From positions 1-64,000 of the forward strand of contig CALXYT010000001.1 in NCBI GenBank assembly GCA_944393045.1: a DNA stretch of 64,000 bases, written 5' to 3'. Below, in pieces: positions 3,370-48,139 of this stretch; the first letter of the stretch is position 1; the number at the start of each line of letters is the position of its first letter. The position numbers and the translations under genes are program-made. The DNA is from an uncultured Succinivibrionaceae bacterium. Lineage in GTDB: Bacteria > Pseudomonadota > Gammaproteobacteria > Enterobacterales > Succinivibrionaceae. Under the pieces are notes generated by a model. It saw only the letters and a program-made list of their open reading frames with translations, was not told the origin of the DNA and searched no databases.

Positions 3370-3763
3370 ATACAGATATTGGAAATTATACAGACAATCA
3401 TTTAATTTTTGTGTACTATGTTGTCTTATATTAAAATTTTTTGGATTACTTAAACTTTTTAAGCAAAAGCAAGCCTAATTAGTTATAAATACACCAAAAC
3501 TTTAATGTAACCTTATATTTTATTTGCGATTTTAAATGGATAGATTAATAAAAGAAATTTATGATTATGTATGTAATACCTATCAGCACACTAATATTAA
3601 CGCTAGTAGATATCCTGGGTGTCATATCTCATAATTAAATACTGATAAAATGGTATATCGTCATCTTGTTAATCTAACATTTTTCTTAATGGTAATTTCA
3701 GGTAGGCTTGAGGTTAATCATTGTGACTTTAACTTAACCTTTACTAAAGGTGAGTGCTTATTA

Positions 3764-4422
3764 GTGCGCATGGCTGGCATATTTTCTAATGGTTGAAAGT
3801 CCTGGAGCGGTGTCCATAGTAAATTATTATAAGTCCTGTCTGAGGAAATAAAGAACAAAAGAGTGATTTCATTGATTTACAGCTTCCTAGGATTCAAGAT
3901 AATTGACCAATGGAAGGTAATTAAGAATGTAGCAGGTCTATCCATAAGGTAATAATTTCTCCTCAATGTGTACTGATTTTTTCAAAATGAACCTGATCAA
4001 CGCTCTATAGTAGGGGAATTAGGTTTGTAAGGTATGCAGTTGACTGCATGATTTGCAAAAGTTAAAGAGCTGTGCATGGAATCACTGAAAGTAAAACTAA
4101 GTTTATCGAGGGTAAATTGTTTCTGCAGATTAACCACGATAAGACGAAGACAGACAGGTTAGGAATTACCACCATGTTTCCAGGATTTGGTTCTTATCAG
4201 ACTCCAGACGGCAGGATGGTATCCGTACACAAGAAGAGTAGAGACAAATTCACAAAGAAGATACCTGGATAAGAACGAGAATACGCCAAATACTTGTAGT
4301 GTCATGGAAAAGAAGCGCAACTATACAGTAAATTACGTTTAAAGGAAAAGCCCACTATTATGAGATGGTACGGTTGGTTTGTTGAGAGTGGCGAAAGGAT
4401 GACCCACATATCATTACTCTAC
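3764..4422 (+). mobile_element. Degenerate group II intron, copy 1
   Basis: Starts GTGCGC (3764) and ends CTCTAC (4422), fitting the GUGYG...AY intron boundary rule. It carries the 5' ribozyme landmark GGTTGAAAGTCCT (about 3791-3803) and domain V/VI-like sequence with GGTACGG (about 4366-4372). At 659 nt it is far shorter than an intact intron with ORF (about 1.9-2.5 kb). It shares long near-identical stretches with the relic at 47134-48139. Removing exactly this interval restores the AraC exon junction in frame. Confidence 0.8.
3842..4272 (+). pseudogene. Group II intron reverse transcriptase remnant, copy 1
   Basis: Translated pieces match an LtrA-type protein. IKNKRVISLIYSFLGF then VIKNVAG (about 3848-3943) corresponds to the region before the PQGG motif. 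FVRYA followed by VDC (about 4031-4054) is the catalytic YADD box with an Asp changed to Val. KTKFIEGK...NHDKTK...GFGSYQT...VHKKSRDKF (4072-4272) is the thumb/maturase domain. Pieces lie in different frames with stops between. Motifs RT0-RT3 are missing. Not functional. Confidence 0.75.
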
Positions 4423-5021
4423 TTAAATATTTGTCACCCCCTTAACGTTTGAGGTAACAGTGCAAGATGAGGTAGCGGTAGTAATAAATATTCCACTGCT
4501 AAAATTTGTGCTTATGGAATTACTTAAAATGGTTGATTTTTGGGAGTTGCGCAAGCAGAAATTAAAAAATTTATTAAAGAGCAAACTATGCTTAATGATG
4601 AATCTATTGCATCGTTTAATATATTTTTAAAACAAATATATTATTTTTTATTACAAAATAACAACGATCATACCTTTATCATTCAGACTATCAGTGATAA
4701 ACATTTTGCTCCATTACTTGATTCTTTAAGATATTATCGTCTCCTTTTTTAAAAATATTAATTTAAGCGTGGAAGAAGCTAGCAAAGTTTGCATGTTTAA
4801 GTCAAGATATTATAGGCTTTTTAAAGATTATACTGGTATGCCTCATATGAGTTATATATGCAAATTGCGATTATATTAAGGCAGTCGCTTAGATTTACCA
4901 GAACGAAAAACAGTTTATAGCGCTACTTTTTAGTAGGTTTTAGTAGTCGTGGACAATTTAGTGCATTGTATAAAGAGATTTTTGGGTATAAGTCAATTGA
5001 TGATATTTACTAATATTTGTT

Positions 5022-47133: not shown

Positions 47134-48139
47134 GAGCGCGTGGCATGCACATTTTTTAATGGTTGAAAGTCCTAGAACCTGCGAGCACTCAGCAAGGTCA
47201 TAGTCGAAGGTTGGACAATGATATTGTGAGGTATTGGTCGGAGGTAGCTTGCATAGATGGGGGAATGTAAAGACTTCCTCATGGGGTTTTATAACCATAA
47301 ATACTGTGTAATAGCGTTTATTACCAAGGGGACATTTAAGCTCTCACCAATAAAAGAGAGTGTTCATACCTAAGGATAATGGGCAAAAGCGTTCACCTGG
47401 TATATCAACCACCGTTCTGAATGAACATTATGAAGATAAATTCCCAGATAGTAGCTTTAAGTTCACCTGGAAGAGTTTGTCACAATGCGACAGATAGAGT
47501 ATTAGAGGTTGCAGAAGAAGGATATATCTATGTTATAGATATGGAACAAGGAAAGTTTATTGCTTAGAGTCAAGATAATTGACCAACTAGCTGCTCGATA
47601 GCAGGGGAATTAGTTTTGTAAGGTATGCAGATGACTGCATGATATTTGCTGAAAGTGAAAGAGCTGTGTATGGAATCCCTGAAAGTAAAACTAAGTTTAT
47701 CGAGGGTAAATTTTTTCAGCAGATTACCCACGATAAGACGAAGATAGACAGGTTAGGAATTTTCCCCATGTTTTCAGGATTTGGTTCTTATCAGACTGCG
47801 GACGGCTGGAAAGTGTCCGTTCACAAGAAGAGTAGAGACAAATTCACAAAGAAGATGCGTGAAATTCTTACGAGGAAATGTCCAAGGGGAAAACAAATCC
47901 CCCTGAAGCAATTTAATATTGTTTTAAAGAGGGATAACTACTTCAGGCTATGTATCAGTAAATCCCATATGAATAGGGAGATGCTTGGATAAGAAGGAGA
48001 ATACGCCAAATACTTGTAGTGTCATGGATAAGGAGCGTAACCATACTGGAAATTACGTTCAATGGCAAGGCCCCTATTATGAGGTGGAACGGTTAGGGTG
48101 TCTATAGGGGGAGGATAAAACCAATCCCCCTTGCTCTAC
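47134..48139 (+). mobile_element. Degenerate group II intron, copy 2
   Basis: Begins GAGCGCG at 47134 (GUGCG with the second base changed) and ends CTCTAC at 48139. The 5' end aligns base-for-base with copy 1 over TTAATGGTTGAAAGTCCT. Domain VI-like pairing GGGGGAGGAT/ATCCCCC lies at about 48106-48130, with a domain V-like GGTGGAACGG before it. At 1006 nt it has lost about half of a full intron, in a different way from copy 1. It sits 6 nt past the gpsA terminator and runs to 71 nt before the nfuA stop. Confidence 0.8.
47423..47992 (+). pseudogene. Group II intron reverse transcriptase remnant, copy 2
   Basis: The first part, in two frames, reads EHYEDKFPDSSFKF and then NATDRVLEVAEEGYIYVIDM (about 47423-47549), the RT1-RT3 region with the metal-binding Asp. 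A stop follows, and the RT4 region is gone. The reading frame 47606-47992 starts GISFVRYADDCMIF, so the catalytic YADD (47624-47635) is intact. It continues through KTKFIEGK, HDKTK, the VHKKSRDKF maturase segment and ends MLG. The internal deletion and stops make it non-functional. Confidence 0.78.

Follow-up and report, generated by a model that had tools for sequence, protein, structure and literature searches.

A fossil group IIC intron in a putative araC-family pseudogene of an uncultured Succinivibrionaceae bacterium

The window, by which we mean the whole stretch of 64,000 nucleotides analysed here from the draft genome of an uncultured Succinivibrionaceae bacterium (G000), carries near its start a broken gene interrupted by a sequence with the ends of a group II intron. 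The question raised by this locus is how the intron came to lie in a coding gene and whether it ever spliced from it. An earlier note on the same DNA had described the gene as AraC-family and the insert as a relic of a group II intron, and had taken the reading frame restored by exact removal of the insert as a sign that it may once have spliced.

The interrupted gene and the point of insertion

3536..3763, + strand: putative araC-family pseudogene, 5' part, 76 codons with TAA at 3632 (ungapped alignment to the homologue L034)
3764..4422, + strand: 659-nt fossil of a group IIC intron with internal deletions (family alignment of the ends and homologue-based join length)
4423..5013, + strand: putative araC-family pseudogene, 3' part with the HTH region (HTH_18 on read-through; alignment to L034)

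The 5' exon comprises 228 nt and ends in TKGECLL, and both its limits and its in-frame TAA are as the earlier note had them; the 3' part holds several stops and frameshifts. Two profiles had been proposed there for the broken gene. HTH_18 was recovered weakly on the read-through, with an E-value of 1.3e-6 and 29 bits (Pfam cut-off 33.6), and no convincing Pfam match to AraC_N or an N-terminal domain was obtained on it. Homologues of the gene are intact in genomes of the same family, and one of these, L034, a protein of 344 amino acids with both AraC_N (E = 4e-13) and HTH_18 (E = 1.5e-12), aligns to positions 4-272 of the query with an E-value of 9e-27 (against a small ORF set) and without a gap at the junction, where KGECLL/LNICHPLNV is paired with KGESLANNIFVPLSI of L034. 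The AraC_N domain of L034 spans the position of the insertion site. By this homology the pseudogene is probably AraC-family, as had been claimed; L034, which is 29% identical to it, may be a paralogue rather than an orthologue.

Aligned sister copies set identical ends for the intron, with a start of about (TTA/)GTGCG and an end of CTCTAC or a close variant, and the boundaries given in the earlier note (GTGCG at 3764 and AC at 4422) were thereby reproduced. In a scan of 2475 joins (45 left ends times 55 right ends) against L034 the top-scoring joins all removed exactly 659 nt, a length that is not a multiple of three, and the join 3763/4423, which translates as GECLL-LNICHPLNV, shared the top score with those shifted to the right by one to three bases. 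The best join length agrees with the distance between the intron ends, so that no target bases were duplicated or lost on insertion. The intron entered the coding sequence cleanly and in sense orientation between codons 76 and 77, and in this respect the earlier claim holds. Among the flanks that were annotated, no other copy in its own genome was seen in sense orientation within a coding sequence.

The restored frame was, however, over-read, since the frame returns whenever an insert that duplicated no target bases is taken out, and its restoration is therefore no evidence of splicing. The sense orientation, the exact ends and the frame-compatible join would all agree with an intron that inserted while the araC gene was alive, continued to splice for a period and then decayed in place together with the gene, but any clean insertion gives such a join, no record of splicing is left in the sequence, and some of the deletions are common to copies at other sites (see below), so that we regard this history as rather unlikely. 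A site without the intron was seen at the protein level in the distant homologue L034 but was not found at the DNA level in a close relative: among the genomes searched, none of them from a genus-mate, a scan with the flanking proteins found nothing and a scan with metH gave only relatives of 52-57% identity.

Decay of the window copy

3764..3811, + strand: 5' terminus of the intron (GTGCG...) with the start of domain I (77% identical to the full-length intron of G019 in a 52-nt alignment)
4012..4322, + strand: remnants of the intron-encoded reverse transcriptase (two tblastn pieces against the intact G022 enzyme)
4315..4316, + strand: junction of a 184-nt deletion common to ten copies
4347..4422, + strand: domains V and VI, eroded (aligned to G019; z-score of the fold)

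Compared with the full-length intron of G019, a genome of the same family, the window copy is devoid of nearly all of the stretch from about 49 to 906 and of three further stretches; most of domain I and most of the reverse transcriptase are lost, and domains I-III of the catalytic core are deleted. The exon-binding sequences would, from the positions of the Rfam matches, be among the lost parts of domain I. The two pieces of the reverse transcriptase match the G022 enzyme with E-values of 4e-21 and 2e-4, and the YADD motif reads YAVD at 4033-4044. Against shuffled sequences the fold of domains V-VI gives a z-score of +0.35 in the window copy compared with -4.7 in the full-length G019 relative. 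Base pairing across the intron family, with the structure taken from G019, is clearly above that in slid controls. The covariance-model check suggested in the earlier note gave a negative outcome, as the Rfam search of the window, the window copy and six sister copies yielded no group II match. Because domains I-III are gone, domains V-VI eroded and the reverse transcriptase dead, the window copy is unable to splice today, and it is a fossil derivative of a group IIC intron and not a working intron.

The intron family and its insertion sites

In the window's own genome the intron gave 27 partial matches at 13 places, the window copy included. As two of these places lie at contig ends and could together make up a single copy, the number of copies is 12 to 13. 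A search of plasmids with the intron gave no match. One further copy lies in the window itself:

47134..48139, + strand: fossil copy of this intron (L024), the second in the window, behind a terminator-like hairpin

Some deletions of L024 are common with other copies, and the 71-nt deletion of the window copy is absent from it in exactly that form. Outside this genome, G019 carries two copies of a full-length relative, about 1.86 kb long, that matches the Rfam model group-II-D1D4-3, and G022 contains a related intron matching both D1D4-3 and RF00029, with an intact reverse transcriptase of 420 amino acids that matches TIGR04416 and among PDB entries is most like IIC enzymes. The family ends, the full-length G019 relatives and the related reverse transcriptase bear out the group II assignment made in the earlier note. 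One of the full-length relatives (L111, G019 C7:901600-904700) is placed in antisense orientation at the end of an apparent lgt gene (as read by eye), and its reverse transcriptase frame is split into two ORFs of 122 and 292 amino acids.

Group IIC introns habitually insert behind terminators (PMC4424553), and they recognise stem-loops (PMC7161350). Readable 5' flanks were available for eleven copies in G000, two in G019 and three in G002, and in G000 nine of these eleven immediately follow a strong hairpin (-11 to -21 kcal/mol), which in most cases is terminator-like. The exceptions are L030 and the window copy, for which the upstream hairpin is as follows:

3732..3755, + strand: weak hairpin, candidate target stem-loop just upstream of the site (-6.9 kcal/mol, z = -1.1)

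This hairpin is not significant, and a strong target at this position was ruled out, as 20% of the TTA sites in the window are equally stable. As for L030, an interruption of a gene just after its ATG was ruled out, since this copy lies antisense just past the apparent end (by eye) of a fis-like gene.

Taken against group IIC introns, which have a class C reverse transcriptase and no endonuclease domain, the likeness thus lies in the GTGCG-type start, the AY end, the absence of a target duplication (the join length being the intron length), the sister copies behind terminator hairpins and the related reverse transcriptase; the window copy keeps fragments only of this enzyme, and it is the intact relative that is closest to the IIC enzymes, as judged from the comparison with PDB entries. 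The window copy differs in lacking domains I-III and a working reverse transcriptase, and in lying in a coding gene without a strong, terminator-like stem-loop 5' of the site. Group II fragments in Enterobacteriales are likewise dead remnants in bacterial chromosomes, but they generally occur in genomes that lack a counterpart of that intron, and the survey saw no large ancient proliferation (PMC3522654), whereas here 12 to 13 dead copies of one family persist together.

Deletions shared between copies

Besides the 184-nt deletion, other junctions are common to two to six copies, and for several pairs of deletions all four combinations are seen among the copies, which a single tree without recurrence cannot produce. 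The interiors of the copies are 85% identical to each other and the ends 77%, while the identity to the outgroup G019 is 61% for the interiors and 69% for the ends. A stretch of 281 consecutive polymorphic sites is identical in L021 and L022, although their 3' ends are only about 77-81% identical. In the permutation test of such runs, sites were treated as exchangeable and 75 pairs were tested, and the top pair remains conspicuous all the same. Both the shared deletions and the alike interiors are best explained by homologous exchange between copies that were already dead; template switching during reverse transcription would yield similar mosaics. Some deletions of the window copy match copies elsewhere exactly and were thus not simply formed here after insertion. 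The shared ones were either brought along with the element or gained by exchange, and those unique to the window copy may be later events.

Identical deletion junctions at different sites are also what would be left by a non-autonomous derivative that, without domains I-III and a working reverse transcriptase, was copied to many sites with an intact intron helping in trans, one of these sites being in the araC gene. The ORF-less introns of Thermosynechococcus elongatus resemble the present family in their many copies with identical internal deletion break-points, and, sharing one deletion, they did proliferate via a reverse transcriptase acting in trans (PMC2882425). These introns, however, kept the ribozyme core (PMC2882425), while the copies here have lost domain I and look fossil. 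Moreover, a recent move should leave two copies that are near-identical at both ends, and the copies include no such pair; the four combinations of deletions also speak against it. The comparison of interiors with ends weighs against mobility of the deleted form, which the shared deletions had suggested, and we consider such copying in trans very unlikely. The split-ribozyme state is known from organelles. That a bacterial family without its own domains I-III, relying on a ribozyme core and reverse transcriptase in trans, spread as a mobile element to a dozen sites strikes us as highly improbable; if true, a bacterium would harbour a mobile family in a split-ribozyme state of the organelle type.

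The account that we find probable is that a group IIC intron retrotransposed into an araC-family gene, that both are dead, and that the window copy is one of 12 to 13 fossil copies with later exchange between them. The copies would have reached their sites in a fuller state along the route usual for IIC introns, i.e. reverse splicing beside a hairpin followed by cDNA synthesis; the one in the window would have inserted in sense at codons 76/77 without duplicating its target, and the deletions would have spread later between the dead copies by homologous exchange (gene conversion). This account is supported by the intron ends, the alignment of L034 across the junction, the 659-nt join, the full-length relatives, the deletion map, the identities of interiors and ends, the test of runs, and the terminators; the points against it are the lack of an Rfam match, the low identity to L034 and the lack of a strong hairpin at the araC site. 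Exchange between dead copies would spread identical deletions to many sites without mobility, and shared break-points therefore need not imply mobilisation in trans.

Merging by the assembler could be partly behind the identical interiors, since the genome is a draft of 96 contigs and contigs end inside two copies. The contigs in question break within L031 (G000 C80:1-482) and L032 (G000 C73:1-212). As L031 keeps an undeleted, stop-free frame for the C-terminal part of the reverse transcriptase, the assembly may lack a fuller copy. In G002, which belongs to another genus, three contigs (L081, L082 and L083) end 72-75 nt into an intron with a near-identical 5' end, all behind terminator-like hairpins, and this intron is probably a multi-copy, recently active relative left unresolved by the assembly.
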